A DNA stretch of 64,000 bases from assembly GCF_012844455.2 (NCBI RefSeq), contig NZ_JABBCQ020000009.1, positions 62,001 to 126,000 of the forward strand, in the 5' to 3' direction. The position numbers were made by a program, and so were the translations under genes. Positions 25,101-63,970 of the stretch are shown one piece after another. The DNA comes from Comamonas suwonensis. Its GTDB lineage: Bacteria; Pseudomonadota; Gammaproteobacteria; Burkholderiales; Burkholderiaceae_C. Every line of letters begins with the position of its first letter. Within the stretch, counting starts at the first letter, position 1. The notes beneath the pieces are model-generated. The model ran no database searches and was not told where the DNA came from. It worked only from the letters and a program-made list of their open reading frames with translations.

Positions 25101-28100
25101 CATCCTCAGTTGCCGCCTTGCCCTGCTGCACACCATTTGCTAAAGTAGAGACTTCTCCTGAACTCGTTGAGCCAGACCGTTCGGATGCCTTCTTGGCATC
25201 AACACTGGACACTCTCGGCTTCAGGAGATTTTCTTTGAGCGAAACACTATGCAGGTACATCCGCTGCGTGTTGTGGTCGCGGCGAACCAGAACAGTCACG
25301 ATGTTGTCCTTGCCTGAAATACTCACCGGCGCGGAAGAGTAAAAGCTATCGGTATGACCCGCTGTGGCCCGATACACCAGCGCACCACGCTCAATCACAT
25401 CCTTGACCGCTGCAAATGCCACCTTCTTGGCATCGTTGGCACCGCCATGCGCTACCGAGCTTTTTGCAGAGCGCGCATCCAGAAGCACCTCACCAAATTC
25501 CGGGCTGATGGCTTTGCCTCCCTGTTGGGCAAAGAGATCCGCCGCCCATCGCTCCACTACGGCATATCCACCTGATGGCGCGTTCTTCAAATCCAGGACC
25601 GCCACCGGTGCACCCTGCAGCACCAGAGCTTTTTCCAGATCGGTCTGAGGTGCTTCACGCGAGTCACGACTGAACGAAGCAACCCCATACAGATTGCCAG
25701 CAGCACCACCACGCTCCACCCAGGCGCGCGCCGGCAGGATGTAGTTGCGGATCAGCTCGGCATCAGTCAGGGCCAGAGATTTAAAGCCCGGCACATGGGT
25801 GCGCAGCCAAGTGCGAATGGCCGCCACAGCACGGCGCACAAAGCCAATTTGCGGCGTGTTCTGCGCCATCTCGGCCAGCACTTCCTCGGCGGCCGTGCGG
25901 CGATCCAGGCGGTTGATACGACGCAGACCGTATTCCTCGATCTTCGCGTCCACATCCGCCTTGCGCATGGTGGCCACCTGGTTCAGGATCAACCCCAAGT
26001 CCTTGCCAAACAGGCCGCGCAGGCCGTGGTGCCCCAATGCCTCATGGAACAGCACGCGGGCCGCGTCGTTGGGCGTCTTGAGCTTGGACGCCATCAGGTA
26101 GACCTTGCCCTGGTAATAGAAGCCTTCAGGTGCACCACGGGCACCGCCGCTGCGCTGCTTCAAGTCAGCGCGGCGGGCGCTCTCTGGCACCACGGGGTCT
26201 TGCATATCAAAGGCCACGACCACCTCGGGACCGTTGGCCCAGGCCCGGCGAATGGCATCCGCCGTACCCGTCACAGCGCGAACGGCCTCCGCGCGGGCTG
26301 CAGGCGAATAGCTGGGGCGCACGTTCATCGCCGGGGCTGCAGCAGCTGCGGCGCTGGCTGGCTGCCCCTCGTTCATGATTTGCAGGAAGCTGGCTACATC
26401 AAAGTCCGCACCGGTTGCGGTGTCTGCGGCTTCGCGGCGGAAGCTGGGGGAGTCCATGCCATCCACTTCGCGTACCAAATGGCGGTGGGCATCCTCTGCC
26501 TTGAGCAGCTGCAGCCGGTTGGCAGTGCCATCTTTTACGGCTGCACGTAATTGCTTGACCTTGGCCCAAGCCTCCTTCTTCTGGCGCTCTCGACTCTCAA
26601 TCTGCCCTTGGACCAACTCCTGCGCCGGAGTCAGCTCCTGCTTGCTTCGCTGTGTTGCATGCTTGCGCTGCCCATCATTGGGTGCAGGCGCAGCCTGTGC
26701 TTCCTTGGCAGCCTTGGCCTCCTTCATGCGCTGCGGTACCGACTTTGGTGCAGGTGCAGGCGTGGACTCGGTTGCAGGTGCTGATGCCGGCGCGGCATTC
26801 GCACTGGGCGAAGCCTTCACCGCAGCCAATGCCTGCTCCACCGGTGCATCCAGCACGATGGCCTTGACCTGCTTGCCTTCCTCGGCTGCCGCGACTGCCT
26901 GGTGGTGGCCGTCAATGATGTGGCCATCGCTGGACACAATCACCGCACGGTCGCCAGTCGCGCTCTTGGCAGCCTCGACCTTGGCGGGCGAATACTCAGC
27001 CTGCGTGGGCTTGAGCGCTGCCGCGTCCACGGTCGTGGTTTCGTGGGCAATGCCCTGGGCATTCAGGTGCTTGACCAGACCGCCATGGTTGGCAGTGGGC
27101 ACTTGGGGCATCTCAGCGCGAGGGATGCCCAGCGTGCCAGTCTCTGCCGCGAACGGCTTGGCATCGGCCATAGGCTGGGCTTCTTGTTTGACGGGTGTTT
27201 GACTGGAAGCCGGCTGAGGCTTGGTCTTTGCTTCACTTTCGATAGCTGCTTGCGCTTTACCTGTAGGCGATGCCGCCGAAACCGCCAAAGAATCCAGCAG
27301 ATTGCCGCGTGTTTTCTCGCCAATGTCTGCCCAAGCCCTAGTGTGCAGGTTCTTGCGAGCAATGGCATTCAGCCCCGGCGCGGTGGCCGTCACTGCCTGG
27401 CGCTCTACGGTGGTCATTCGGGTCCAGCGTTCGCTGGCTTCGAGCTGTCGCTGGCGCTGGGCTTCGCGCCCGGCGTTGCCCTCATGCGCGATCTGTTCCG
27501 TCTTGGTTGCCGAAGCGGCAGCACCTACGCTTTGGCCTGCATCCTTGCCAGCTTGCGTTGCTCCTGCTTGCGCAGGTTGCGAGCTGCCTTGCTGGGTTTG
27601 ATCGGCTTGAGAGACATTGGCATTCGCTCCTGTTTCAATAGCTGTTAGCGTTTTCTGTGCAAGCGCTTGAAGTGCTTTCTCCAGTTTTGCTGTGCGCTTG
27701 TGATTGGGGCCGTAATGAGCAATGGCCTGCTGCAGCTCCTGCTCGCTCATGGCGGGGATCTGCTTGGCCAGAATCTGGTTGATGCCGGTCAGGGGCACAG
27801 GGGCGGGCGCGCCCGTGCTCGAAGCGCCGCGCTCTTTCCCGCCAGAGGCTTGCAGCTCCAGACGGGTGAGCTGGGTCTGCAGCGCGTTACGCTGGGCCAC
27901 CATGTCTTTGTTCCAACCCTGGGCCTTGCCCTGCTGCTGCATGTAACCAATGCTTGCCCGCAGGTTGTTCATCTGCGCTTGCAGCGAGATTTCGCCAGTA
28001 TCTGGGTCCACGCCTGGGGCGACAGCAGGCGATGGTGCGCTCTCCTGTGGAGCCATGTCCTGTGCCGCGCCCGTCAAGCTGCCTGCTGTGGGTGTTTGCT

Positions 28101-29574
28101 CCGCCGGTGCAGTCAGGCTGGCTGTCGCGCCGGCATCCACCGCCATGGCTGCCGCTTTGGACAGCGCGCCGGCATTGGGGTCCAGGCCCATGGCCTGAGA
28201 GGGAGCCAGCTCTGGCGCGGGAACCGCTGGAGTGTCCGCGCCCAGGTCTGCCGTGCCTGGCGCTGCATTGGGGTTAGTAGTGGACTCGCCCACTGGTGCT
28301 GGGGTTGCAACTGGCTCCGTCACCTGCGTCACATCCTCCGGCGTTGCGCCGACATTGCCCATGTCGTCTGCATACAGCGTGGCGTCCTGGCCCATGTCAT
28401 TGGCCGCGCCCGACTGTTCGACCGGCACACCTGCTGACTCGGCAGTTGAGGGCGATCCAGCTGCAGCCTCTTGCGCCTGAGCCTGGGCCACATTCCAGCC
28501 GCGCACCCACTGCGCCTTGGCCACCACGCTTTTGATCGACTCCGGCGGCGTGCGCGGTTCTCCAGAAGCAAAAGCAGCAGCACCCTCACTCTGTCGCTGG
28601 GCCGCGCCCTTGTGCGCCATGCCCTCCATCGCGCCAAAGCCTCCACCCATGGGGGCAGAAGCCAAGCCTTCCAGCGCAGCCTGCCCGGCCACGCCCTGCC
28701 AGGTTGGCACATCAAAGCCTTCACCCTGCAGCGCGGTATTGGAAGCATGCCGCTCCTGCCCGCCCTGCAGCATTTCCATCGGAGCCTCTTTGGCCGCGCC
28801 CATAGCAGTGGAGCGCAGCACACCAGGAGCTGCTTTTTCTGCTACCTCGGCCGCCACGCGCTGGCCGGCCAGGCGCCGCACCGCACTTTCCGCACCGGTA
28901 CCGCCAGCTGCCGCGCCCAGTACCCCACCCAGGGCAATGCTCCCCGCATTGGGGCCTGCATAGGCTTGAGCTACATCGGCACGCTGGCTGGCATCGGCCT
29001 CGCTCCCGCCCGCTTCTAGGTGCTTTTGCTTCACGCTTTCGTGGATCTGCCCCTTGATGCCACCCAAGCCTTGCGCCGCGCCCAGCCCCACCTGGGCTGC
29101 ACGCGCGGCTATGGCAGGCACGGCGCCACCACCAGTCAGCAGACCAGCCACCAGCGTGGGGGCAGAGGTGCCCAATGCATTCAGCGTGGTATCAATTGGA
29201 GCTTCGGCAAAGCTGCCAGCATAGGCCTTCACTTCCTCCCAAGTGCTGCCAGACTCTTCAGCTACTTTGATGATTTCAGAGCGGGCCTGCTTCTGAGCTT
29301 TGCGCTGTGGTGACACAAGGTCCGTCAGCTTCTCCGTAGCCTTGCCCAGAACACGTGATGCAGCATTGTCGGCACCAGCCACATCCGTAAGCATCTTGAC
29401 GCCCTGGGTGAGCCCCGAGCCCAAAGCAATGCCCAAGTCGCCGGCTCCGCGAATCAAGCTTCGTTCAGGCGGCGACTCTCCATCCAAAGTTCCCGCAAAT
29501 GGCGCAAGGCCCTGAGTGGCAGAGCTTGGCTTATCCAGCTCACCTTGAAATGGCTTGAGAGGCTTTTGAGTCAT
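22102..29574 (-). CDS. Giant polyvalent virion protein (probable DNA-ejection protein)
   Basis: At 2490 residues this is the largest gene. The ATG at 29574 has GGGGG before it and stands exactly 31 nt after late motif copy 4. Visible parts are: an Ala/Gly-rich, membrane-interacting N-terminus; long Ala/Pro/Gln linkers; a ParB-like block (VSSDGHIIDGHHQAVAA, about residue 885); a metallopeptidase-type HEALGHHG (about 1175); and an LPD-type domain (VVERWAADLFAQQGGK, LLDARSAKSSVAHGG, about 1350). A helical region and one hydrophobic segment near residue 2210 follow. Such multi-domain polyvalent proteins are packaged and injected with phage DNA to protect it and remodel the host. Individual activities are inferred. 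Confidence 0.8.
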   Translation of the reverse strand: MTQKPLKPFQGELDKPSSATQGLAPFAGTLDGESPPERSLIRGAGDLGIALGSGLTQGVKMLTDVAGADNAASRVLGKATEKLTDLVSPQRKAQKQARSEIIKVAEESGSTWEEVKAYAGSFAEAPIDTTLNALGTSAPTLVAGLLTGGGAVPAIAARAAQVGLGAAQGLGGIKGQIHESVKQKHLEAGGSEADASQRADVAQAYAGPNAGSIALGGVLGAAAGGTGAESAVRRLAGQRVAAEVAEKAAPGVLRSTAMGAAKEAPMEMLQGGQERHASNTALQGEGFDVPTWQGVAGQAALEGLASAPMGGGFGAMEGMAHKGAAQRQSEGAAAFASGEPRTPPESIKSVVAKAQWVRGWNVAQAQAQEAAAGSPSTAESAGVPVEQSGAANDMGQDATLYADDMGNVGATPEDVTQVTEPVATPAPVGESTTNPNAAPGTADLGADTPAVPAPELAPSQAMGLDPNAGALSKAAAMAVDAGATASLTAPAEQTPTAGSLTGAAQDMAPQESAPSPAVAPGVDPDTGEISLQAQMNNLRASIGYMQQQGKAQGWNKDMVAQRNALQTQLTRLELQASGGKERGASSTGAPAPVPLTGINQILAKQIPAMSEQELQQAIAHYGPNHKRTAKLEKALQALAQKTLTAIETGANANVSQADQTQQGSSQPAQAGATQAGKDAGQSVGAAASATKTEQIAHEGNAGREAQRQRQLEASERWTRMTTVERQAVTATAPGLNAIARKNLHTRAWADIGEKTRGNLLDSLAVSAASPTGKAQAAIESEAKTKPQPASSQTPVKQEAQPMADAKPFAAETGTLGIPRAEMPQVPTANHGGLVKHLNAQGIAHETTTVDAAALKPTQAEYSPAKVEAAKSATGDRAVIVSSDGHIIDGHHQAVAAAEEGKQVKAIVLDAPVEQALAAVKASPSANAAPASAPATESTPAPAPKSVPQRMKEAKAAKEAQAAPAPNDGQRKHATQRSKQELTPAQELVQGQIESRERQKKEAWAKVKQLRAAVKDGTANRLQLLKAEDAHRHLVREVDGMDSPSFRREAADTATGADFDVASFLQIMNEGQPASAAAAAAPAMNVRPSYSPAARAEAVRAVTGTADAIRRAWANGPEVVVAFDMQDPVVPESARRADLKQRSGGARGAPEGFYYQGKVYLMASKLKTPNDAARVLFHEALGHHGLRGLFGKDLGLILNQVATMRKADVDAKIEEYGLRRINRLDRRTAAEEVLAEMAQNTPQIGFVRRAVAAIRTWLRTHVPGFKSLALTDAELIRNYILPARAWVERGGAAGNLYGVASFSRDSREAPQTDLEKALVLQGAPVAVLDLKNAPSGGYAVVERWAADLFAQQGGKAISPEFGEVLLDARSAKSSVAHGGANDAKKVAFAAVKDVIERGALVYRATAGHTDSFYSSAPVSISGKDNIVTVLVRRDHNTQRMYLHSVSLKENLLKPRVSSVDAKKASERSGSTSSGEVSTLANGVQQGKAATEDVARELNRLLTLDTNKVQRDAANGDSDADDLLFSRSKMMELKDSALDQLSQTFTHEGKVSLWDKSVGTMRHLGERAPAFKPVYEAASQNIEDVSMLANDAADAAPRLIPRVESLRDMLGKDRKKPVSAADNKAVAKPLFEGTLVWARDENGKPAQVGELQKRHANLSVHNKAAMLLKQGKIDSGVLAMWQGLPLAQFEKLIDSRFESKMLKAGIVWSDSELQSMFGADANQVSLYREARAAIDRSIDMTARTDMLRVVGEKYEPMRDAVLAQPSVEAAAQLLLDTLEQDAKADPDSRDRLGEYMQQIKRRMETATDLQKAGYAPLSRFGRYTVDVVDANGERQYFGMYESQRESNLAKMQLAQEFKGATITTGTMSAEAYKLFAGVTPETLEQFGEMLGLKSEGNEAQDKAFQEFLKLTKNNHSAMKRMIHRQGIAGFSQDVGRVVANFVYSNARAGAMGLNAGKMDTAIGAIPKEQGELKDLAMGLRSYIRDPQEEGQAVRGMLFAQYLGGSLASAFVNMTQPFQITMPWLSQYGGMKKAGAQMARALKDMGTKGFQYEDDLAKALQAAEDDGTVSPQEVHQLMAQARGAGGLRSGDGTRTGDARAQASNLWEKGKVLWGQPFALAEQFNRRSTFIASYRIAKDQGMADPAAFARKAVLETQFVYSKANKPQWARGAVGGTLFTFKTYSVSYLELMQRMWTQGEAGSPERAAGRRAVGWALAMLVLMGGAGGLPFMEDAEDLIDGAGQLMGYNLSSKQWRKELMADAVGKELADFMEQGISGLPGAPIDVSGRLGMGNLLPGTGLFLNKPSRERDLLEIAGPAGDLVSRGFSGARKLLGGDVAGAALEISPTAIRNLAKGADMAATGMYRDTKGYKVIDSTLAEAAAKAIGFQPKPVSEVQEANSFMQRSKSFYTQTSSEIKAQWADALFRKDEAAVKRVRERLADWNRVNPDQPMVVKMPDVWKRVREMGKDRTQRIAEAAPKALREQMRSQAAEVWG

Positions 29575-29605
29575 CCCCCAATGACACCTCACCCCTGGTG
29601 GTGGT

Positions 29606-37565: not shown

Positions 37566-38855
37566 TTAGATGGTCTTGCCGAAGATGGGCACTACCGTGT
37601 CAAGCACAGCAATGCCGTGGTCGGTGAACTCCACCTTGTCGTCACCCGTATTCACCGCAAAGCGAATCTTGGAGGCACCCAAAATCGCGCCAATCAGGGC
37701 TTCCATCTTGTCGTCGAAGTCGTCGTCCTGCTCCTTCCAGAAGTAAGGCAGGCCGTTGTGACGGCTCTTGGCATAGCCCTTGGCCAGTGCCTGGCCGCCC
37801 AGCAAGATGGAGCGATCCACCGCGAACTTGTCACCAAACGACGCGGGCACCAGCGCGCTGGACTCGGCTTCACTGTCGAACTGATCGCAATACATGATCT
37901 TGTCGCCAGCAAAGAAACGAATGGGCTTGGGCATCTTCACCACCAGGGTGTTGGACCAGAAGGCCGATTCGGGGCTGCGGAACAAGGGATGATCCTTGGC
38001 ATTGCGCGCACGGGCCAGAGCCTGCGCTTGATATGCACGGAAATTGGGATCAGTTGCAAAAGCCGTGTATTGCGATGTGGAGACCAGCAGCACCCGGAAA
38101 GGACTGTCCTTGGCCATCTCGTCGCCCTCGAACTCCACGGCAGGCGGCGGCATCACCATCTGCTCCAAGTAGCTGCTGAGTGCATCCACGTTGGGCATCT
38201 TCATGATGTCGCCCGTGGTCAGATCCACCTCACCGGCATTGGCCTTGAAGCGTTGCAGCGAATCACCTTCAATGATGAAGTGGCGGTTCTTGGTGGGAGC
38301 CTTAACGCGGTTGACGACCACCTTGCCAAAGCGCGGATCTGCTGCCAGAGGAATGCGCCAAGTATGGTCGTTCATGAAACCGCGCGCCCCCGCCATGTGC
38401 ACCAGAGACATTTGGTCTTCATAGTCGTCCATGGCGCGCTGCAGCAGTGGCTTGGCCAGTCGATAAATATCGACAGGGCTGCGAACTTCATCCATGACCG
38501 CGCCCAGATCCAGAGGAAAACGCGCCTGATTCACACGCAAGCGATCCTCGGACAGAGAGACGCCTTCACCGCGCCCGGCTGCATATTCGCTACCCATGAT
38601 GGGGATGCCGCCCACCGGGTTTACGAAGTTCATTTTCAGCTCATCACCACGGCCCTTGCCCAGATCCATAGTCTGGACGATGGGCATGGTGTTGCTGGAT
38701 TGGTTGTTTAGCGCGCTGGCGGTGGCCTCGATTTTCGGGAACTTGCCCGTCAAACGATTGATATTGGAATGGCGCTTCTGGGTTGCCGAAAACACCCCCA
38801 TGGCCTGCTGTACCAGCTTCTGCTGGTCTTCTGCGGACGTGCTGGTTTTGCTCAT
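37566..38855 (-). CDS. Major capsid protein (DUF4043 / N4 gp56-like)
   Basis: The 429-residue protein resembles DUF4043 capsid proteins. Visible blocks are a P-domain-like segment (QARFPLDLGAVMDEVRSP), a spine-helix-like region (LLQRAMDDYEDQMSLVHMAG) and the C-terminal KPIRFFAGDKIMYCDQF and ILLGGQALAKGYAKS. It should form the T=7-type shell with the HK97 fold. The scaffold gene lies 15 bp upstream and the decoration-like gene downstream. Confidence 0.85.
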   Translation of the reverse strand: MSKTSTSAEDQQKLVQQAMGVFSATQKRHSNINRLTGKFPKIEATASALNNQSSNTMPIVQTMDLGKGRGDELKMNFVNPVGGIPIMGSEYAAGRGEGVSLSEDRLRVNQARFPLDLGAVMDEVRSPVDIYRLAKPLLQRAMDDYEDQMSLVHMAGARGFMNDHTWRIPLAADPRFGKVVVNRVKAPTKNRHFIIEGDSLQRFKANAGEVDLTTGDIMKMPNVDALSSYLEQMVMPPPAVEFEGDEMAKDSPFRVLLVSTSQYTAFATDPNFRAYQAQALARARNAKDHPLFRSPESAFWSNTLVVKMPKPIRFFAGDKIMYCDQFDSEAESSALVPASFGDKFAVDRSILLGGQALAKGYAKSRHNGLPYFWKEQDDDFDDKMEALIGAILGASKIRFAVNTGDDKVEFTDHGIAVLDTVVPIFGKTI

Positions 38856-40147: not shown

Positions 40148-42475
40148 TCAAGCCAGGTTGTCTTGCGTTGAAGGCGTTTCAATTCCCTGCATCCCTGTGT
40201 CCGCACTCTGAGGAATGGGCGGAAAGGTGGGGCTGGTGTTCTCGCGCACCTCTGACGCCGCGCCCGGCTCCAAGGCCGCGCCTCCCTGAAAAGGCACCGG
40301 TCCATCTGGCACAGGGCCAGCAGGGGAAGACTCCGGTGTCGGAAAGTTAGGATCGTCTCCGCCTGGTGTGGGCTTCTGGTAGCCGGCCGACTGCATGATG
40401 GCATCCGCGATTGGAGCGATCATCGGCATCTGCGCCACCTGCGCACCACCCTGCATGGCAGAGAAAGCGGCCTGCACGCCGGTCTGCACTGCCTGAGCCA
40501 TGATCTGCTTGATCTGGGCTTCGGTCAGTCGCTCCTTGAGATCCAGCTCGCGCGCCTTCAATTCATGCCCGGCCTTGACCAAAGCCTCCTGCACCGCCTG
40601 CTGAACGCGCTTCTCAACTTGCTCCGGCGTCTCCTGTGAGCCCACTGCCCGCAAAGCCTCAACGATCTGCTTCTTGTAAGGCGTATCCATGAGAGCCACC
40701 ATGTAGGGGAAGGCTGCCTGCTGGAACTGCGGCGGCATGGTCTTGATGACCTCTTGCATGGCATACAGCTGCTGCGAACGGTAACCGGCAGTGCTGGGCA
40801 CCTCATCCAGCTGAACCTTGCAAAGGGTGCGCTGTACATCATTGGACAGGTAGCTATAGCCCTGAGGATCGGTTTCAAGCTGATTGAGCGAGATGGTCCG
40901 GTCTGGCAACACCGCATCGCCCTCGATGGGCACCTGCTTTGGCTTATCGCCCAGGCTCTTGATGATCATTGCGAGCAGCATTTCACCTATCAACGTGCGC
41001 GCCTTGCGAAAATTGCTCATCACAGTGCCAAGGCTTTGATTGGCCTGCTCAAGCTGTGTACGCTCCTGCAAGCCGCTTGTAGCGTTACCACGTTGACCAG
41101 TAAATGCGGCTGGCGCTGCAGACAACTGCTCAAACACCGAGCGGCAGTTGTTCATCAGCTGCAACTGCTGCTCACTGAGCTGAACATCGCGCTTGACTTC
41201 AAAGCGCGCGCCCTTCTTTTCCATGTGCTCCTGATCCAAGGTAATGTCAGCGTTGCGCCGACCGATCTGGCGCCGGAACTGGGCGTCTGTCATGGCCACC
41301 GCGCCCTTTGTTCTCTCGGTGCGGTATGCAGCCATACCCCAGCGCTGCAATGCGGTGCCACTGTTAAGGCTATCTTGCTGGTAGATCACACCACGCACAT
41401 AGCCATACGGGACGCGGGTGCGGTCCTCGCGGAATCCCCAGAACATCACATAAGGGAAGTGGTCATGGGGATAAGGCGTTGGGCTGTCATGCAGCTTGTG
41501 CGGCCCTAGCCAGTAGCTGCGCCGCACTTTGGACACCACCGCACGAAATGGCTTGGAGCGCCCGGTCGCGATGCCGTAGTTGTGCGCCTGGTTCTCGCTG
41601 TCGTACTCCACCACCCGGCCATCCGGGGTTTCAAGCAAAGTAGCCTCGACCCAGCGGCGATACCAAAGTTCTGTCAGGCACAGCTGCTTGCTCACCCGGC
41701 TATACCAGCGCGCCTCCTCAATAGTGGAGCTTCGCCCCTCCAGCGAGGCATTTTGCAAGCCCGTGGATGCTCCGCCCTGACTGGAAAAACGACTGTTGAA
41801 CCCTTCGTTCCACCACTGAGCGCCATGCCGGCCGCACTGCAAGATCAGCTCCCGGTGTTGAGGGAAAGCGCGCGCGATTCGATCCGGCAACAGCCATTTG
41901 TCGCGCTTGAAGTAGCGCGCATCCGACAGATCCCATTCCTGCGCCTGCCAGTCCCAGCGCACTTCATTACGGTGTACGGCTGCGCACTTGAAAGGGAACT
42001 TGGTCGGATCGCTCTCAAACTTGACCTCTACACAGCCCAGACCCACCCCGACCTGGGGGCGAAAGGCGTCTGAGCATGCGTCGTCTGCTTTGGACTTTCG
42101 CTCTGCCTGGTTCAGCTCTTCATTGAGCGCCTGAGCCACATCATCTGAACTCTCTTGCCCGCTATTGGCCGACACACGCCAATCGGTACGCGTGGTGGTC
42201 TCATAGCCTTGCAAGGCCAGCAGCATGGGGCCGATACGGTCCTCGATAGCTGGTGGGATGCCCTGCTCTTTCATCGCTGCCAGCAACTCGGTATCGAGCT
42301 GATTGCCATCGGCATAGTCCATTTCCTTGTCCGCGGTCGCGCGCCATCCCGGCTCCTCGTCCATCTCCCTCAGCCACTGAGTGAATTCCTCTTGGGTAAC
42401 CTCCAGCGTTTCAGGAGACTCTGTGCCAATCTCTTGGTCTGCTTCAGCAGTATCGGATTCATAGGTATTGTTCAA
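40148..42475 (-). CDS. Portal protein (P22-like)
   Basis: The 775-residue protein matches the P22 portal class: an N-terminal helical arm, DWRVSANSGQESSDDVAQALN, RPQVGVGLGCVEVKFE, the WWNEGFNSRFSSQG region, and a long helical C-terminal barrel (about residues 600-700, QVEKRVQQAVQEALVKAGHE) with a disordered tail. It forms the dodecameric DNA gate. The start is a TTG behind GGAGG that overlaps the terminase stop. The long barrel suggests P22-type headful packaging. Confidence 0.9.
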   Translation of the reverse strand: MNNTYESDTAEADQEIGTESPETLEVTQEEFTQWLREMDEEPGWRATADKEMDYADGNQLDTELLAAMKEQGIPPAIEDRIGPMLLALQGYETTTRTDWRVSANSGQESSDDVAQALNEELNQAERKSKADDACSDAFRPQVGVGLGCVEVKFESDPTKFPFKCAAVHRNEVRWDWQAQEWDLSDARYFKRDKWLLPDRIARAFPQHRELILQCGRHGAQWWNEGFNSRFSSQGGASTGLQNASLEGRSSTIEEARWYSRVSKQLCLTELWYRRWVEATLLETPDGRVVEYDSENQAHNYGIATGRSKPFRAVVSKVRRSYWLGPHKLHDSPTPYPHDHFPYVMFWGFREDRTRVPYGYVRGVIYQQDSLNSGTALQRWGMAAYRTERTKGAVAMTDAQFRRQIGRRNADITLDQEHMEKKGARFEVKRDVQLSEQQLQLMNNCRSVFEQLSAAPAAFTGQRGNATSGLQERTQLEQANQSLGTVMSNFRKARTLIGEMLLAMIIKSLGDKPKQVPIEGDAVLPDRTISLNQLETDPQGYSYLSNDVQRTLCKVQLDEVPSTAGYRSQQLYAMQEVIKTMPPQFQQAAFPYMVALMDTPYKKQIVEALRAVGSQETPEQVEKRVQQAVQEALVKAGHELKARELDLKERLTEAQIKQIMAQAVQTGVQAAFSAMQGGAQVAQMPMIAPIADAIMQSAGYQKPTPGGDDPNFPTPESSPAGPVPDGPVPFQGGAALEPGAASEVRENTSPTFPPIPQSADTGMQGIETPSTQDNLA

Positions 42476-44779: not shown

Positions 44780-45049
44780 ATGGAGAAATTTTTGAAAACA
44801 GATAACCAACTGACAGTTAGCACATTGCGTGAGGGTCTCGAATCCCTTGGAGCAGGGGAAATGGCCGATGCAGTGATTGCGGGCTATCTCTTAAAGAGAC
44901 TGAAAGATATAACAGAAGCAAGCAGCAAGGAACAAGCTGCAGCTGAGCTTGAGAAATTCAGTAACGAGTTGAAGGCTGACGAGAAAACTGCTGAACTCGC
45001 AAAGATCGCAGATTTCTTCTTACTCTGTATGGCATTGAATAAGGAGTAA
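44780..45049 (+). CDS. Small acidic helical protein, unknown
   Basis: The 89-residue frame starts at ATG 44780, but a TTG at 44792 has a GGAGA at a good distance and may be the real start. The protein is helical and acidic (EQAAAELEKFSNELKADEKTAEL) and soluble. It stands alone on the plus strand between the leftward early operon and the late genes, the place where late regulators often lie. No DNA-binding motif is evident. Confidence 0.55.
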   Translation: MEKFLKTDNQLTVSTLREGLESLGAGEMADAVIAGYLLKRLKDITEASSKEQAAAELEKFSNELKADEKTAELAKIADFFLLCMALNKE

Positions 45050-51246: not shown

Positions 51247-51945
51247 ATGCAACCCATTGACGTCACGCGCCGCGAAAACTTAGGTCGGCTTATAAAAGAA
51301 GCAGGCAGCCAAGCAGCACTCTCCGACGTGATAGGCAAAGCCCCCGCCCAGATCAGTCAGTGGCTCAATGCCTCCCTCAACTCAAAAACTGGCAAGCCTC
51401 GGGTAATGAGCAACGCCATCGCGAGGGAGATTGAAGCCAAAACAAATAAACCAGAAGGCTGGATGGATCAACCCTCCAGCCGCGATCAGTTGCGCACCCC
51501 TGGCGGATCCAACGCGGAATTCACCCCCCTTGCAGGCGTTCGTCGCGTCCCTGTTATCTCCTACATTCAAGCCGGAGTGTGGACAGAAATTGCAGGCGAC
51601 TTCCAACCAAGCGATGCTCATGACTGGCTGATCACCAGCGACAAGCACTCCGGGGAAACGTTTGTGCTGACAATTCGTGGCAACTCCATGGAGCCCGACT
51701 TCAAAGAGGGAGATGCCGTAATCATCGACCCCTCCGTCAAGCCTCGGCCTGGCTCGTTTGTCGCCGCCAAGAACGGCCGCGAAGAAGCCACATTCAAAAA
51801 ATACCGCCCACGCTCCATTGATGTGCTTGGCAATGAAGTGTTTGAACTTGTTCCCCTGAACGAGGACTACCCCACCATGCGCTCAGACGAGCAACCCATT
51901 GAGATCATCGGAACCATGGTGGAGCATCGCCGCTTCTTCAAATAA
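51247..51945 (+). CDS. LexA/CI-type prophage repressor (S24 peptidase domain)
   Basis: The 232-residue protein has an N-terminal helix-turn-helix (AALSDVIGKAPAQISQWLN) and a C-terminal S24 domain. The latter has the catalytic serine in TIRGNSMEPDFKEGDAVI and the lysine in EEATFKKYRPRS. RecA-stimulated self-cleavage is expected at a site before the S24 part (about residue 100). Operators of one family lie both upstream (51.17-51.24 kb) and downstream (52.02-52.06 kb), so one repressor controls both early transcription units. It would hold the lysogen, with SOS induction. Confidence 0.92.
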   Translation: MQPIDVTRRENLGRLIKEAGSQAALSDVIGKAPAQISQWLNASLNSKTGKPRVMSNAIAREIEAKTNKPEGWMDQPSSRDQLRTPGGSNAEFTPLAGVRRVPVISYIQAGVWTEIAGDFQPSDAHDWLITSDKHSGETFVLTIRGNSMEPDFKEGDAVIIDPSVKPRPGSFVAAKNGREEATFKKYRPRSIDVLGNEVFELVPLNEDYPTMRSDEQPIEIIGTMVEHRRFFK

Positions 51946-56236: not shown

Positions 56237-56447
56237 AGCCCTTTACGCAATCGCTCTGGCGATCCTCTCCGTGACGCTTGTGCTTCTGTGGATCTCTGGG
56301 CCAGCCCAGGCAGAGGAAGAACCCAGCGAACCACCATCCCCGACCGGCACTGTTCGTATGGCCGCCCGCGATGCGTTCGCCTGCCCCGGCATGCATGCCG
56401 AATGGCTGGACGAGAAGACTGTGCAATGCCTGAAAGTGAGCCCCTGA
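56229..56447 (+). CDS. Small exported protein, unknown
   Basis: The 72-residue protein has a signal peptide (MTKALYAIALAILSVTLVLL, cleavage after AQA) and a short mature part with two Cys (AFACPGM, VQCLKV). It overlaps the previous gene and its stop overlaps the next start (TGATG). No function is assigned. Confidence 0.6.
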   Translation: MTKALYAIALAILSVTLVLLWISGPAQAEEEPSEPPSPTGTVRMAARDAFACPGMHAEWLDEKTVQCLKVSP

Positions 56448-57658
56448 TGTTCAAGAGCATGATCATTTACCGCATTGCCGAGAGCTGGCAAAGCGACCTG
56501 CAGGTGTTGGCTGATGCCCTGCAAAAGACATTGTTTGCCGAGTGCGGAGCGACGCAAGAGCGATCTGTGGGCTGGGTTCCGCCGCGCGGCGAGCAGCATG
56601 GCCCGCTGGTTGAATCCGTGGCCGGTCAATGGGTGATGCGCTTCATGACGGAAGCCAAGGTTCTGCCCGCTAGCGTGATCAATCGCAAGGTCAACGAGAA
56701 GGCAGAAGCCATTGAGAAGGTCGAGGGCCGCAAGCCGGGCAAGAAAGAGAAAAAGGACCTGAAGGACGAGGCCAAGCTAGATCTGCTGCCCATGGCCTTC
56801 ACCAAGCAAGGTGCCATGTGGGTCTGGATCGACCCGCAGGCACGCACGCTAGTGCTCGACACCAGTGCCCAAGGCCGCGCCGATGAAGTCGTCACGTTGC
56901 TGGTTGAAGGCCTGCCGGGCTTCGCGCTGGCCTTGCTGGATACCCAAACCAGCCCGCAGGCGGCCATGGCGCATTGGCTGATGACGCAGGAGCCGCCCAC
57001 CGGCTTCACCGCAGACCGAGAGACAGAGCTGAAAGCGGCCGACGAATCCAAGGCAGTCGTGCGCTACGCCCGTCACCCGCTCGACATTGATGAGGTTCGC
57101 CAGCACATCGAGCACGGAAAGATGCCCACCAAACTGGCGATGACCTGGGACGACCGCGTGAGCTTCGTTCTGACCGAAGGCCTGCAGATCAAGAACATCG
57201 CGCTGCTGGATGCGGTCATGGACGGTAACAGCAAGGACGACAGCGGCTTTGATACCGATGTGACGATTGCCACCGGCGAGCTGTCGCGCCTGATCCCCGA
57301 TCTGATCGAAGCACTGGGTGGTGAAGGTCGAACCGGCCTGGGCGACCTGCCCGCCTCGCTTCAGAACGCGCCTGCTGCGGAAACTCTGCCTGCAAGCACT
57401 GCCAGGACCGCGCCCGCCCCTCACTGCGAAGCTGCTGGCGACGGTCCAGACCCGCTCTATGCCGAGGCCGTTGAACTGGTGCGCAAGGACCGGAAGCCAA
57501 GCATCTCCTATGTGCAGCGCAAGCTGCTGATCGGCTACAACCGCGCCGCAGCACTGCTAGAGCGCATGGAAGCCGAGGGGCTGGTGTCACGAATGGGTGC
57601 CAGCGGGCAACGCGCGCTCCTAACGCCCGCTACCCAGGCCCCCAGCGCCAGCAACTGA
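56447..57658 (+). CDS. RdgC fused to an FtsK gamma-type winged helix
   Basis: The 403-residue product starts at 56447 (MFKSMIIYRIAESWQ), overlapping the previous stop. Residues 1-300 match RdgC: FAECGATQERSVGWVPPRG, FMTEAKVLPASVINRKVNEK, LDLLPMAF, QGLQIKN-like EGLQIKNIALLDAV. RdgC forms a DNA-encircling ring that limits RecA. Residues about 340-395 (DPLYAEAVELVRKDRKPSIS, YVQRKLLIGYNRAAALLERM) match the FtsK gamma domain, which reads KOPS sequences and activates XerD. The two parts are linked by an Ala/Pro-rich stretch. I know of no standard RdgC with this domain. A role in prophage recombination or replication is inferred. Confidence 0.85.
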   Translation: MFKSMIIYRIAESWQSDLQVLADALQKTLFAECGATQERSVGWVPPRGEQHGPLVESVAGQWVMRFMTEAKVLPASVINRKVNEKAEAIEKVEGRKPGKKEKKDLKDEAKLDLLPMAFTKQGAMWVWIDPQARTLVLDTSAQGRADEVVTLLVEGLPGFALALLDTQTSPQAAMAHWLMTQEPPTGFTADRETELKAADESKAVVRYARHPLDIDEVRQHIEHGKMPTKLAMTWDDRVSFVLTEGLQIKNIALLDAVMDGNSKDDSGFDTDVTIATGELSRLIPDLIEALGGEGRTGLGDLPASLQNAPAAETLPASTARTAPAPHCEAAGDGPDPLYAEAVELVRKDRKPSISYVQRKLLIGYNRAAALLERMEAEGLVSRMGASGQRALLTPATQAPSASN

Positions 57659-57715: not shown

Positions 57716-57741
57716 GCCCGCCACTGCGCGGGCTTTTTTTT
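57716..57741 (+). terminator. Terminator before the DGR
   Basis: GCCCGC-loop-GCGGGC with eight T; ends 18 nt before the GTG start of DGR target 1. Confidence 0.88.
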
Positions 57742-57759: not shown

Positions 57760-58347
57760 GTGCAGATTCATACACAGAACGTCATCATCCTTCCGCCAAC
57801 CGCAACTGCTGACGCCATGGCAAGCATGGAGCGGCTCATGCAAAGCATTGGCCGCGCCGAAGCCCCGGCAGTCGCAGCCCAGCCAGACGGCAGGCCACAG
57901 ATTGGTAGCTACTGGCCAGGCCAGGGCGGGCTCTACGCTGGTGACATGCGAGGCGACGACGGAACGATCTATGGACTGATCGTGTCCGACTGCGGCGATA
58001 CCAAGGACGCCGGCTCAGCCAAGTGGGGTCCAGATGGTGAACGTGACCTGTCCCACTGGGATGGCCTGGATAACACTCGCCGCTTAGGCAACGAATGCCC
58101 AGCAGCAAAGCTGGCCGCCACGCACTCAGCAGACGAGCACAAGGACTTCTACCTCCCAGCCCGCCGCGAGCTGCAACTGGCCGCTGCAAATGTGCCTCAT
58201 CTTTTCGGCGATGAGAGCTGGTACTGGAGTAGCACCCACTACGGCCAGAGCACCGCCTGGGCCGTCGATTTTGAGTACGGGAGCACGTACGACAACTTCC
58301 GGTACGTCGAGTTCCGAGTTCGTCCCGTCCGCAGATTCATCTATTGA
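57760..58347 (+). CDS. DGR target protein 1 (DUF1566/C-type-lectin-like fold)
   Basis: The start is a GTG with AAGGAG 8 nt before. The 195-residue protein has a DUF1566-type domain: YWPGQGGLYAGDMRGDDGTI, then FYLPARRELQLAAANVPHLF and DESWYWSSTHYGQSTAWAVD. It ends in the variable repeat and the fixed VEFRVRPVR tail. No signal peptide, membrane anchor or virion-attachment motif is evident. The N-terminal 50 residues are a Gln/Ala-rich extension. Binding specificity should be set by about ten diversified codons in the last 30 residues. The ligand is unknown. Confidence 0.88.
   Translation: MQIHTQNVIILPPTATADAMASMERLMQSIGRAEAPAVAAQPDGRPQIGSYWPGQGGLYAGDMRGDDGTIYGLIVSDCGDTKDAGSAKWGPDGERDLSHWDGLDNTRRLGNECPAAKLAATHSADEHKDFYLPARRELQLAAANVPHLFGDESWYWSSTHYGQSTAWAVDFEYGSTYDNFRYVEFRVRPVRRFIY
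58256..58334 (+). repeat. DGR variable repeat VR1
   Basis: The 79-bp segment differs from the template (59337-59415) at 10 positions, each of which is adenine in the template. Both flanks are identical. The invariant 3' end (GTTCCGAGTTCGTCCCGTCC) is the likely initiation-of-mutagenic-homing region. Confidence 0.95.
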
Positions 58348-58389
58348 TCCCTTCAGCCCTTCCCTTCAATCCCACCAATGGAGCATCCA

Positions 58390-58791
58390 ATGAGCACCAC
58401 ACCCGCAATCAACCAACCCTGGCCCGAACAGGGCGGCATCTTCATCGGCAGCCGCCTGATCGACGGCCTGGTGCACCACGTCGTCATCCCGGGCGGCATT
58501 GAGTTCGACCATACCGACATCCCATTCAGCCGGGTCGAGCAGGTGGTGGCCGAAGGCGATGAGCTGAACGGCTTTAGCGACTGGCGCGCGCCCGACAAAG
58601 AAGACCTGATGCTGGCTTATATCAACAGCCGCGAGTTCTTCGATACCGGCGGCTGGTACTGGTCACGCACTCCGGATGGCGAGCACTGGGCCTGGGCCGT
58701 CGATTTTGAGCACGGTTTCACGCACGACTGCTACCGGACCATCGAGTTCCGAGTTCGTCCCGTCCGCAGTTTTCCCGCTTCAGCGATTTAA
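58390..58791 (+). CDS. DGR target protein 2 (DUF1566/C-type-lectin-like fold)
   Basis: The 133-residue product uses the ATG at 58390 (GGAG upstream). It is homologous to target 1 along its length: PWPEQGGIFIGSRLIDGLVH, the core DWRAPDKEDLMLAYINSREF, then TGGWYWSRTPDGEHWAWAVD and the variable repeat. It lacks the N-terminal extension of target 1. It follows target 1 by 42 bp. A second target doubles the repertoire from the same template. Confidence 0.88.
   Translation: MSTTPAINQPWPEQGGIFIGSRLIDGLVHHVVIPGGIEFDHTDIPFSRVEQVVAEGDELNGFSDWRAPDKEDLMLAYINSREFFDTGGWYWSRTPDGEHWAWAVDFEHGFTHDCYRTIEFRVRPVRSFPASAI
58691..58769 (+). repeat. DGR variable repeat VR2
   Basis: The 79-bp segment differs from the template at 11 positions, all adenine in the template, and differs from VR1 only at such positions. 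A 6-bp GCGGGC/GCCCGC hairpin follows at 58798-58812, after the stop and just before the Avd gene. Confidence 0.95.
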
Positions 58792-58818
58792 CAATTTGCG
58801 GGCGTAGCCCGCCTTGGC

Positions 58819-59280
58819 ATGGCACTTCACACTGACACCGAAATCTACAAATCCACCTATGACTTGAGCAAGCTGGTCACCCTTCTGGTGGCCAACATGC
58901 CCAGGAACTTCAAGGCCGACTTCGGAGCCGAGCTGCGGCGCCGATGCATGGCGCTGGTCATGCGCACCTACGAGGCCAACACCAGTGTGGACAAAGCCGC
59001 AGTCCTGCAGCGCATGCGCATGGAGATCGAGACCGTCAATCTCTCCTTGCGCCTGGCTGTGGATCTGCGGTTGATTTCGGTTAATCAGTACAGCCGCGCC
59101 ATCGCCATCACTGACAGCATCGGCAAACAAGCCACCGGCTGGCAGAAGTACTCGGAACGCGCGCACGCTGCCGGACCGTCAAGGCAGTCCGGCCAAAGCG
59201 CCTTGGAATCTGGTCGAGCCGCTGGGCCACAAGCCCACCGAAAGGCGCAACAGGGATATCGGCAGACGCATCTGCAGTGA
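58819..59280 (+). CDS. avd: DGR accessory variability determinant (Avd)
   Basis: The 153-residue protein is a four-helix-bundle type: IYKSTYDLSKLVTLLVANMP, RNFKADFGAELRRRCMALVM, then VLQRMRMEIETVNLSLRLAV and LISVNQYSRAIAITDSIGKQ. The pattern and the order target-avd-template-RT are those of Bordetella phage BPP-1. Avd forms a pentamer that binds the RT and template RNA. The C-terminus is basic and Gln/Arg-rich, ending shortly before the template. Confidence 0.9.
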   Translation: MALHTDTEIYKSTYDLSKLVTLLVANMPRNFKADFGAELRRRCMALVMRTYEANTSVDKAAVLQRMRMEIETVNLSLRLAVDLRLISVNQYSRAIAITDSIGKQATGWQKYSERAHAAGPSRQSGQSALESGRAAGPQAHRKAQQGYRQTHLQ

Positions 59281-59336
59281 TCTCGCGCAGTTTGCCCGCT
59301 GAAATCTCGGCGGGCCGACGTGATCCGCTCGGCGCC

Positions 59337-59415
59337 CCTGGGCCGTCGATTTTGAGAACGGAAACACGAACAACAACAACCGGAACAACGAGTTCCGAGT
59401 TCGTCCCGTCCGCAG
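59337..59415 (+). other. DGR template repeat (TR)
   Basis: The 79-bp non-coding template lies between avd and the RT gene. It contains a run of AAC codons in register with the target frame (18 adenines in the 33 bp between two invariant GAG triplets). It is transcribed and copied with adenine-specific errors into VR1 and VR2. The frame here does not encode a target-like protein. Confidence 0.95.
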
Positions 59416-59433
59416 ACTCCACCGAGAAACTTT

Positions 59434-60534
59434 ATGGATACTGGCTATTCGCTCGAAAAGCTGGTGCAGGCCTATTTTGACTGCCGCCAGCACAAACGCA
59501 CCTCCGCCAGCGCTCTGCTGTTCGAGCAGGCGCTGGAACACAACCTCATGCAACTGCATGAAGAGCTGCAGGATGGCAGCTACCGGCCCGGTCCATCCAT
59601 CTGCTTTGCGATCAGCCGGCCACGGCCGCGCGAAGTCTGGGCCGCGCAATTCCGGGACCGCATCGTGCACCACCTGCTCTACAACCAGATTGCCGATCGA
59701 TTCCACCGCCGCTTTATCGCAGACTCCTGCGCTGGCATTCCCGGGCGCGGCACGCTGTACGCAGCCTCCCGCCTAGAGGCCAAGGTGCGAAGCCAGACGC
59801 AGAACTGGTCAGTGCCCGGGCACTACCTGAAGATTGATCTGGCCAATTTCTTCGTCTCCATCGATAAGCGCATCGTCTGGCCACTGTTGGTCAAGCAGAT
59901 CCCGGAGCGCTGGTGGCGCGGCTTGGCCAAGATCATTCTCTTCAACGATCCGCGCGCAGACTTTGTGCAGCGCGGAAGCCCAGAGACGCTAGCCGCCGTT
60001 CCAGTGCACAAGCGCCTTGCCAATGCCGCACCCTACTGCGGTCTGCCCATTGGCAACCTGAGCAGCCAGTTCTTTGCCAATGTGCTGCTCAACGAGCTGG
60101 ACCAGCATGCAAAGCACCGCGTCAGGGCCAAGCACTACACGCGCTATGTTGATGACATGGTGCTTCTGCACGATTCGCCCCAGTGGCTCAATGGCGCGCT
60201 GGCCAGCATCAATGCATTCCTGCCCAGCCTTCGCTTGCGCCTGAATCCACGCAAGACCGTGCTTCAGCCCATCGCTCGCGGCATTGATTACGTGGGCCAG
60301 ACGATCTATCCGTGGCGCCGGACAACGCGCCCGCGGACTCTGCAGCAGGCCTTGGCTCGCATCGAGACCATGCCGGCCGATGAGGTCTACGCCAGCGGAA
60401 ACAGCTATCTCGGCCTGGTGCGCCAATCCAGCTCCAGCCACAACGAACAAGCGCTCATATGTAGAGCGCTACTGAAACGAGGCCATGCAGTTGAAGGGCT
60501 GCACCTCACCAAAGCATTTCGCAAACACCACTGA
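59434..60534 (+). CDS. DGR reverse transcriptase
   Basis: The 366-residue enzyme has the RT motifs: FRDRIVHHLLYNQIADRF (motifs 0/1), LKIDLANFFVSIDKRIVWPL (motif 2/3, catalytic Asp), LPIGNLSSQFFANVLLNELD (motif 4 with the DGR-type IGxxxSQ at about 205), and the catalytic YVDD of HYTRYVDDMVLLHD (about 238). It lacks an endonuclease or maturase domain, as expected for DGRs. It uses the TR RNA with Avd to make mutated cDNA. A terminator follows the stop by 5 bp. Confidence 0.95.
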   Translation: MDTGYSLEKLVQAYFDCRQHKRTSASALLFEQALEHNLMQLHEELQDGSYRPGPSICFAISRPRPREVWAAQFRDRIVHHLLYNQIADRFHRRFIADSCAGIPGRGTLYAASRLEAKVRSQTQNWSVPGHYLKIDLANFFVSIDKRIVWPLLVKQIPERWWRGLAKIILFNDPRADFVQRGSPETLAAVPVHKRLANAAPYCGLPIGNLSSQFFANVLLNELDQHAKHRVRAKHYTRYVDDMVLLHDSPQWLNGALASINAFLPSLRLRLNPRKTVLQPIARGIDYVGQTIYPWRRTTRPRTLQQALARIETMPADEVYASGNSYLGLVRQSSSSHNEQALICRALLKRGHAVEGLHLTKAFRKHH

Positions 60535-60538
60535 CCCC

Positions 60539-60559
60539 AGCCCGCCGCCGCGGGCTTTT
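60539..60559 (+). terminator. Terminator after the DGR
   Basis: AGCCCGCCGCCGCGGGCT stem followed by TTT; ends 19 nt before the next ATG. Confidence 0.82.
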
Positions 60560-62561: not shown

Positions 62562-62783
62562 ATGAGCAATATCACAAGCACTGAGAATCAGATTCAGCCA
62601 CTGATTTACACCAAGGCCCAGCTGCCCGCTATCGTGGGTCTGAGCAAAGCCACTATCGACCGCATGCGCAAAGAAAAGGCATTCCCCGAAGCCATCGTTC
62701 TTTGTAAAAACAAGGTGGGATGGCCCGTAGATGTGGTGAAGCAGTGGATTGCCCAGCGCCCCACCGCCACCGGTATTTATTGA
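62562..62783 (+). CDS. AlpA-family excisionase / regulator
   Basis: The 73-residue protein has the AlpA helix-turn-helix (LIYTKAQLPAIVGLSKATID) and a basic second helix (RMRKEKAFPEA), ending in WPVDVVKQWIAQRP. Its 3' end overlaps the convergent integrase gene by 7 bp. Such proteins promote excision and regulate integrase expression in P4-type elements. Confidence 0.85.
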   Translation: MSNITSTENQIQPLIYTKAQLPAIVGLSKATIDRMRKEKAFPEAIVLCKNKVGWPVDVVKQWIAQRPTATGIY

Positions 62784-63970
62784 GCCTGGATGCAGTGATT
62801 GGCCCAATCCTGCATCAGCTGCGTCCGTTTCTCCAGCAAGTCACCCCGGCGGTAAGCAGCTTCCACTTTGCTCTCTATGGTGTGAGCCAGGGCCATCTCC
62901 ACCACATCCTTGTCATAGTCCGTGCACTCTGCCGCCCAGTCGCGGAAGGTGCTACGGAACCCATGGGGCACAGCAGTAAGCTCCATTCGGCGCATGACCG
63001 CCGTAAGCGTCATATCCGACAACGCTTTACCCGATTCACTTGGGAAAACGTAGTCGCACCCCTCTTTGCGAGCCTGACCGGCCAGCAGCGCCAGCGCCTG
63101 TTTTGACAGGGGCACGCGATGCTCGCGCCGGGCTTTCATGCGCTCGGCTGGAATCGTCCAGACTCCCGCCCCCATATCAATCTCACTCCACACCGCCTCT
63201 CTAGCCTCACCCGACCGCACAGCGGTCAGCACCTGGAATAGCAGCGCCTTGGCGCCCTGACCTGCGCTCGCGGCAATGGCCCCCACAACTGGTGCAACCT
63301 CTTTGTACGGGACAGCCTCATGGTGGCGCACCTTCGCAATCTTGGTGGGCTTGGGCAATATCTGATCAAGGTGCCCTGTCCATCGCGCAGGGTTCGGGTG
63401 CTTGTGCCCACAGAACACGGCGGCCCAATCAAGCACCGTTTCAACCCGGCCACGCACGCGCGATGCGGTTTCGGTCTTGGTGTGCCAGATCGGCTGCAGC
63501 AGCGCAAGAATGTGCTGAGTGTCGATAGTGGTCACATCCAGATCCCCAATGAAGGGGTAGGCGTAGGTTTCAAGAGTGGCTGACCACTGCCCGGCATGCT
63601 TGGCATTGCTCCACTCGCCTGACTTGGCGGTGATGCATTTATTTGCCGCATCCCTGAATAGCAGCTTCTTGGCCTGCTCCAGCTGGCGCTGGGCGCGAAG
63701 GCTCCCGCGCTCATCGATAGGGTCAATACCTTGCTGAATCTTCAGGTGGGCATCGCGCGCTTTGTCACGGGCCATAGACAGGGTGACTGTGGGGTACGAG
63801 CCCAAACCCATCCGCCTACGGGACTTGTGGATAACGTATCTCAAGACCCATGACCGGCTCAATCCAGCCACCCGTAAATGCAGCCCGGCCACGCCACCAA
63901 CGGCAAACACGCCATCTGATTTCAGGCGTGCAACCTCCAACGCTCCCAGCTCTTTACTGATCTTTGGCAT
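62777..63970 (-). CDS. P4-type tyrosine integrase
   Basis: The 397-residue enzyme has the N-terminal DUF4102-like arm-binding domain (VGGVAGLHLRVAGLSRSWVL, RRRMGLGSYPTVTLSMARDK), a central SAM-like core-binding domain and a C-terminal catalytic domain. The last carries Arg in LTAVRSGEAREA, HGFR (about 336-339), His 363 and Tyr 373 in VEAAYRRGD. It mediates integration and excision. It ends the prophage; the putative attR lies 12 bp behind its start. Confidence 0.95.
   Translation of the reverse strand: MPKISKELGALEVARLKSDGVFAVGGVAGLHLRVAGLSRSWVLRYVIHKSRRRMGLGSYPTVTLSMARDKARDAHLKIQQGIDPIDERGSLRAQRQLEQAKKLLFRDAANKCITAKSGEWSNAKHAGQWSATLETYAYPFIGDLDVTTIDTQHILALLQPIWHTKTETASRVRGRVETVLDWAAVFCGHKHPNPARWTGHLDQILPKPTKIAKVRHHEAVPYKEVAPVVGAIAASAGQGAKALLFQVLTAVRSGEAREAVWSEIDMGAGVWTIPAERMKARREHRVPLSKQALALLAGQARKEGCDYVFPSESGKALSDMTLTAVMRRMELTAVPHGFRSTFRDWAAECTDYDKDVVEMALAHTIESKVEAAYRRGDLLEKRTQLMQDWANHCIQAQ

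Follow-up and report, generated by a model that had tools for sequence, protein, structure and literature searches.

How does a phage retroelement that copies one template into two recipients tell donor from recipient, and what are its two diversified products for? The question is raised by a cassette at positions 57760-60534 of a 64,000-nucleotide stretch of Comamonas suwonensis DNA (assembly GCF_012844455.2, contig NZ_JABBCQ020000009.1, positions 62,001 to 126,000, forward strand), referred to here as the window; positions are counted from its first letter. The cassette is a diversity-generating retroelement (DGR) of a temperate phage. It contains two target genes, each with a variable repeat (VR), an avd gene, a template repeat (TR) and a reverse transcriptase (RT) gene. 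Read from the sequence, the account that best explains the locus, and that we hold to be probable, is that a structured RNA named RT-15 leads the template, copying errors opposite adenines create the variants, a periodic element marks the recipients, and the lectin-like targets are not tail proteins. RT-15, the periodic element, the recurrent pairing of targets and their position apart from the structural genes were absent from the initial annotation of this DNA.

The TR (59337..59416, + strand) holds 24 A in 80 nt and, in the frame of the targets, eight AAC codons. Alignment to the TR places VR1 at 58256..58335 and VR2 at 58691..58770, both on the + strand. The initial annotation had given TR 59337-59415, VR1 58256-58334 and VR2 58691-58769, which proved exact on re-alignment; the repeat extends by one base (59416, A), which adds a twelfth VR2 difference, again at an A. 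The adenine-only variation described there was also recovered, with differences at 10 of 79 positions in VR1 and 11 of 79 in VR2, every one of them at one of the 23 adenines of the template (probability by chance, hypergeometric, 7.9e-7 for VR1 and 1.5e-7 for VR2). The first base outside the repeats mismatches on both sides. A search of the 4.72-Mb host genome, with adenines free and up to 3 mismatches, returned exactly three repeat matches, all on the same strand, and zero matches in the backward control. The VRs end 9 nt and 18 nt ahead of the targets' stop codons. Each of the eight in-frame AAC codons can yield 15 residues and never a stop codon, by arithmetic about 2.6e9 combinations per target, and the combinatorial diversity earlier proposed for two targets served by one template is arithmetically plausible.

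The remaining parts of a complete DGR, as previously claimed, were confirmed by alignment and profile searches, including lectin targets with a C-terminal VR. Target 1 (57760..58347, +, 195 aa, GTG start with alternative internal starts) and target 2 (58378..58791, +, 137 aa) both carry an Lcl_C/C-type-lectin domain in Pfam, with scores of 31.6 bits (below the 34.9 cut-off) and 39.9 bits (above it), respectively. Their homology is borne out by this shared domain and by 49 identities across a 152-column alignment. The AlphaFold2 model of target 2 (mean pLDDT 89.7) has a C-type lectin fold, and its nearest solved structure is 8q4e, the Legionella Lcl C-terminal domain (Foldseek 1.1e-6); by coordinate arithmetic its variable codons are residues 112-122. 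The model of target 1 (pLDDT 79.8) has a low-confidence N-terminal helix and was compared with viral models only. The product of avd (58819..59280, +, 153 aa) matches Pfam bAvd (6.3e-13; 49.6 bits, cut-off 40) and the PHROG family 'Avd protein of DGR' (2.1e-32), in line with the Avd type first assigned to it; it scores 54.3 bits against NCBIfam DivGenRetAVD, under the cut-off of 80, and a PDB sequence search with it gave no match. The RT gene (59434..60534, +) encodes 366 aa with YVDD and IGNLSSQ in the translation, as noted before, and matches RVT_1 (4.7e-16). It is of the DGR type (phrog_1423, 3.5e-106), and its best solved relative is PDB 8ub7 (6.8e-34), which we take to be the BPP-1 enzyme.

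Relatives were collected by RT searches, which gave 29 viral and 10 genomic loci, with matches in 25 of 149 genomes, many of them to distant RTs. The main sample comprises 41 non-duplicate loci with RT-15, obtained by combining our own TR/VR detector with Rfam; loci are cited below by L numbers. Duplicates (L001, L002, L004, L021, L053, L054 and L056) and broken loci (L003 and L010) were removed before counting. At least two VRs are present in 39 of the 41 loci, and in 37, by a reading of the table by hand, the VRs include a tandem pair that lies 644-725 nt and 1073-1393 nt upstream of the template. Three VRs occur in six loci (L037, L041, L042, L052, L060 and L061); the third VR of QDWS is at 44977. 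The single-VR loci are L029 and L043, the stored stretch of the latter starting 1.1 kb before the RT. One L047 VR was counted as two pieces, which makes 86 true VRs, not 87. In an RT tree of 68 tips, the 36 tips labelled RT-15 form one clade (support 0.925), as do the 40 tips with a short gap between TR and RT (0.983). The RT-15 tips are a selection, and one of them, L065, was covered by the VR search and not by Rfam. The BPP-1 and L048 comparison groups are not monophyletic as sampled, and L140 groups with L257. A scan for further relatives of the L015 RT found none.

The Rfam covariance model places RT-15 RNA (RF03018) at 59159..59339 (+), as a structured leader reaching to the start of the template. 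The match is full-length (144.5 bits, gathering score 82, E 1.6e-35). RT-15 is a multi-helix structure, with its closing helix immediately ahead of the template. In all 41 loci its final base falls 0-9 nt (median 2) beyond the base that opens the TR; in L069 and L074 the distance is 1 nt. The distance from the TR to the aligned RT start is 4-40 nt in the 41 loci and 17 nt in the window; in three other groups the gap is 143-185 nt (54 BPP-1-like loci), 149-473 nt (40 loci) and 193-795 nt (73 loci). Across 30 sequences the 53 pairs derived from Rfam are paired in 90.5% of cells, against 30.5-40.9% when the structure is slid, and 37 of the 53 have changed on both sides; 0 of 500 shuffles attained these values. 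RNAalifold, run without the Rfam structure, returned 47 pairs, 33 of them with changes on both sides. In the window the last 122 nt of avd (59159-59280, stop included) also form two thirds of RT-15.

A transcript running through avd into the RT gene would carry the RT-15 leader, with the closing helix just before the TR. On this leader RT and Avd would most likely come together to copy the template, making errors where it has adenines; the cDNA would then take the place of the corresponding 80 bp in the 3' end of either target gene. Binding of RT-Avd would be a likely job for this orphan RNA family, an entry named merely 'RT-15 RNA' (sRNA) in Rfam and placed here as a DGR template leader. Alternatively, RT-15 could regulate expression or halt reverse transcription at the template 5' end, with no part in RT binding and with the protein-binding RNA elsewhere. 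It sits where cDNA synthesis should end and overlaps the end of avd (by 17-18 nt in 17 of 35 loci and by 119-122 nt in 12 of 35), and in BPP-1 a motif in avd stops reverse transcription at the template 5' end (PMC12875486). A caveat on the short gap is that it is measured to the aligned RT start; in some phages (Cruim01, Magia) the annotated start lies further upstream, within the TR or RT-15. We nevertheless consider a purely regulatory or stopping RNA unlikely: RT-15 appears bigger and more conserved than a stop signal should require, and 3' of the template there is a gap of just 4-40 nt and no synonymous constraint. A hidden 3' structure in the RT gene was also considered and rejected, the synonymous conservation of the first 15 codons (0.541, compared with 0.505 overall and 0.363-0.590 in windows) giving no signal.

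Anchoring of RT-Avd by a 5' RNA would set the cassette apart from that of Bordetella phage BPP-1 (mtd/avd/TR/brt). The initial annotation had described BPP-1 order; this stands for the genes (target-avd-TR-RT) and fails for the RNA: the template has it on the 5' side here and on the 3' side in BPP-1. There the TR-RT gap is 144 nt, with RF03022 (Phage_DGR, 2750-2882) inside it between TR (2887-3020) and brt, whereas the window has 17 nt and RT-15 5' of the TR. The BPP-1 spacer 3' of the TR recruits RT-Avd and primes cDNA synthesis (PMC12875486). The two systems are alike in gene order, in the families of Avd and RT and in adenine-only differences, and in part in the hairpin, which in the window follows VR2 and not VR1. 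The target Mtd of BPP-1 is a C-type lectin as well.

RT-15 does not reach the Rfam gathering score in L011, L012-L015, L046, L048, L049, L058, L059 or BPP-1, nor in the broken loci L003 (deleted from avd to RT-15) and L010 (RT 5' end missing). At E 0.1 there is no match in L011, L058, L068, L148, L192, L200 or L203. RT-14 RNA begins at most 4 nt from the template 3' end in L192, L200 and L203, and the same holds for L048, which also has RT-14; the fourth long-gap locus, L148, has no Rfam match. RT-14 is another orphan RT-n RNA that resembles a DGR RNA. With RT-15 5' and RT-14 3' of templates, two RT-n families mark opposite template sides, an indication that the RNAs of DGR templates are laid out in two ways. 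The idea that RT-15 goes with early-region targets and its absence with tail-fibre-like ones was dropped. In L046, L058, L011 and L068 the gap is still short, about 43-46 nt, and a scatter of conserved bases is shared with RT-15. A reduced 5' RNA may therefore predate the switch of targets. No paper placing RT-15 at DGR templates was found in the literature covered, which did not include the likely source paper of the RT-n RNAs, reportedly 10.1093/nar/gkx699.

The TR and VRs of the window are alike to their 3' ends, so recipient and donor are probably told apart by sequence beyond the repeat. In BPP-1, by comparison, the annotated TR (134 bp) exceeds the detected adenine-only match by 15 bp. 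Past a shared TCCGC end, the VR flanks of the clade hold about three units of the form T-Y-R-N-Y-N-M-T. In the window the lag-8/Gibbs model places this 8-nt-periodic element at 58337..58360 (+, three units) after VR1 and, in weaker form, at 58772..58795 (+) after VR2. Lag-8 identity is 0.460 in 53 VR flanks of 24 loci, compared with 0.275 in shuffles (sd 0.010); the 7 VRs that lie over 1500 nt away from their template reach 0.461, and the value after 37 TRs is 0.182. The Gibbs model scores 969 on real VR flanks and 214-245 on shuffled ones. The models cover 39 loci and 80 VRs; L027, L029 and L030 (near L028) were omitted, and so were the split piece of L047 and those repeats of L043 and L009 that lack the TCCGC end (3 VRs and 2 TRs). 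When each locus in turn was excluded from the model (the nine Comamonas-type loci together), the flank ranked among the top sites of its own locus, both strands counted, for 65 of 68 VRs in 31 loci. The misses are one L064 VR, one L047 case owing to the split VR, and the window VR2, whose element falls short of second place among the sites in its 14 kb once the model is built without its own clade. Arrays resembling the element were seen by eye in L046, L058 and L011, none of which is in the model. BPP-1-like VR flanks have no period 8 (0.199, compared with 0.247 in shuffles), so the element is not general.

A GC-rich hairpin, GCGGGC-GTA-GCCCGC, was found by hairpin search after VR2 (58798..58812, +), and none was found after VR1. 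Stems of at least 6 follow 23 of the 80 VR flanks, compared with 1-4 in ten shuffles. The periodic element, present after VRs and not after TRs, would mark the recipients, with the hairpin added at some of them, and is a candidate for the mark that separates recipient from donor. Several points weigh against this assignment. The unit phases in the left-out test were still set by the full model. In the small L046 group lag-8 identity is raised after five TRs as well (0.330, compared with 0.400 after six VRs). Hairpins follow only 23 of 80 VRs, though BPP-1 requires one (PMC3240598). The element could also be a by-product of homing, or could supply stop codons in shifting frames; unit position 2 is C in 42% of units, which gives no stop codon there and runs contrary to the latter. 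Separately, the VR flanks of the L048 group (L188-L267) have TCTG-rich arrays of period 7-8, some followed by a GC-rich stretch.

The window targets are encoded between a repressor and an integrase. Upstream, on the cassette strand, are genes for a CI/LexA-like repressor (51247-51945) and for RdgC (56288-57658); downstream come an AlpA-like regulator (62562-62783), on that strand too, and an integrase (62777-63970), on the opposite one. In the flanks of related loci, Pfam matches among 78 downstream proteins of 25 loci include 10 tyrosine integrases and 3 serine recombinases, and those among 77 upstream proteins of 22 loci include 5 S24 repressors. These proteins were picked by hand, mostly the larger ones (77 of 140 upstream and 78 of 139 downstream open reading frames). 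The Pfam families listed (25 of 31 downstream, 23 of 23 upstream) include one peptidase M15, perhaps lytic, and no capsid, portal, terminase or tail family. No VR was found among the annotated structural genes of Magia, QDWS, Haboob (50,000 of 50,033 bases) or the structural half of Cruim01, the VR search leaving aside 45.0-55.7 kb of Cruim01 (10.7 kb) and 33 bases of Haboob. In LPPA56 and SC_8_H2H8, where annotation is sparse, every VR adjoins the RT. Complete-looking targets of relatives are mostly 118-206 aa, one lectin domain plus a short N-terminal piece; two remote ones are longer (L052, 241 aa; L047, 266 aa). No signal peptide was seen in them by eye, without a predictor and with start codons picked by rule. 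The targets are stand-alone C-type-lectin domains, usually in tandem pairs, with a function that can be suggested from sequence. Short as they are, they differ from typical DGR targets, which are multi-domain with a C-terminal VR (PMC8144416).

The cassette might still be a plain BPP-1-type DGR, with lectins that are receptor-binding proteins of the virion and switch host tropism, and with the RNA position a detail. The gene order equals that of BPP-1. C-type lectin targets are usual, and viral targets of several clades are mostly tail proteins (PMC8144416). In L046 and L058, neighbours of the RT-15 clade on the RT tree, the one VR lies in a protein of 628-635 aa that is tail-fibre-like by eye, and the authors of the Magia paper state that its DGR may alter host range (PMC7883833). 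We regard this reading as doubtful. No tail domain was found by Pfam in either window target, and the targets of relatives are mostly equally short. The cassette lies on the strand opposite to the P22-like portal (40148-42475) and capsid (37566-38855) genes, which are on the minus strand, and the VR searches and flanking families given above count against it too. Tropism switching as the role of both lectins is not supported. Kindred cassettes occur in Magia, classed as a myophage by its authors (PMC7883833), and in this prophage with P22-like head genes, so a job outside the tail would fit better than a tail part. The two lectins would then have their role inside the infected or lysogenic cell or in its surroundings and not as tail fibres, and the accepted host-range-switching account would not obviously apply to such phage DGRs.

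What they might bind there can be put forward only tentatively. The locus may exemplify a second DGR architecture, in which a 5' RT-15 RNA anchors RT-Avd, an 8-nt-periodic element marks recipients, and pairs of non-virion lectins encoded in the lysogeny region perhaps serve, inside the cell, to bind variable proteins that belong to competing phages or to host defence; we think of this full picture as possible rather than likely. Cytosolic variable proteins have been discussed, as the authors' speculation, as possible immune sensors (PMC10053308), and intracellular sensing by the lectins here is speculation of the same kind.

Recent activity, proposed in the initial annotation, is supported by strain comparison, an alignment check suggested there: VRs change at adenine sites between strains. 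Compared with C. testosteroni JL40 (L055), whose RT is 96% identical, each VR of the window shows differences at 12 of the 24 adenine sites and none at the other 55, against a divergence of 4.1-8.7% in target bodies, avd and RT. Between the window and L023 the TR is identical across the 80 bases compared and the RT gene differs by 12.7%; of the 23 adenine sites, 11 differ in VR1 and 12 in VR2, and of the 56 other sites, 0 and 1. The L055 template has gained an A at position 60, where its VR2 has A and its VR1 has G, and the L022 template has a T at position 62, as do both L022 VRs. Recurrence of template changes in VRs, together with divergence at adenine sites, is the pattern expected from TR-to-VR transfer after the strains split, and bears only indirectly on mutagenic transfer of cDNA. 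Other observations count against it. Among the 8 VRs compared with the TR of their own strain there is a single non-adenine difference, in L023 VR2. This T-to-G change at position 16 is also found in L003 VR1, and the second L003 repeat has G-to-C at 25; these two non-adenine changes in L003, which has no separate TR, were scored against the TR of the window. Some VRs (L023 VR2; L041) have 1-3 non-adenine differences. In the 41 loci TR/VR differences number 1048 at adenines and 21 elsewhere, a ratio biased upward by a detector that penalises non-adenine differences. An inactive relic, with old differences and repeats that no longer exchange, is very improbable: broken relatives do exist (L003 without avd and RT-15 between VR2 and TR; L010 with an RT match that starts only at residue 60-61), but the reading frames of the window cassette are intact, its TR is identical to that of L023, and template changes recur in the VRs of L055 and L022. 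In L003, which is of the same genus (reverse complement 340-1620), target 1, one fused repeat and the RT remain; the loss is a deletion between VR2 and TR, presumably through recombination of the repeats.

Burkholderia phage Magia is a close parallel. It belongs to the same clade, with an RT 60% identical to that of the window, RT-15, paired small lectins and a further target near the immunity repressor. Its authors name genes 47 and 57 as targets (PMC7883833); here a VR was detected in gene 46 too. Two targets per template were already known from the Bacuni phages (PMC8143477) and the nd4/nd12 'tentaclin' phages (PMC10743442), which likewise have one TR and two C-type-lectin targets, DUF1566 proteins in Bacuni (PMC8143477). 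Unlike those of the window, these targets are tied to receptor binding or tropism (PMC8143477, PMC10743442). The window also differs from BPP-1 in having two short targets apart from the structural genes. OK094664 (a Shewanella phage) and OP650936 (a 'Hujiaoplasma' phage) are records of equal length that gave the same match, with a DGR near that of Magia, and one of the two host labels may be wrong.

Stems resembling intrinsic terminators border the cassette at both ends, upstream at 57716..57733 (+), followed by 8 T, and downstream at 60539..60556 (+), with a T-rich tail. The terminator-stem scan found 9 such sites on the two strands of the region, compared with 2.8 expected from shuffles. 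A promoter scan of the cassette region found no promoter. The product of the upstream RdgC gene (Pfam 4.6e-106) bears a C-terminal FtsK gamma domain (1.2e-20), that is, a recombination protein fused to a reader of DNA motifs. A 2496-aa open frame at 22102-29592 (minus strand) has LPD3 ('large polyvalent protein') as the sole domain found.

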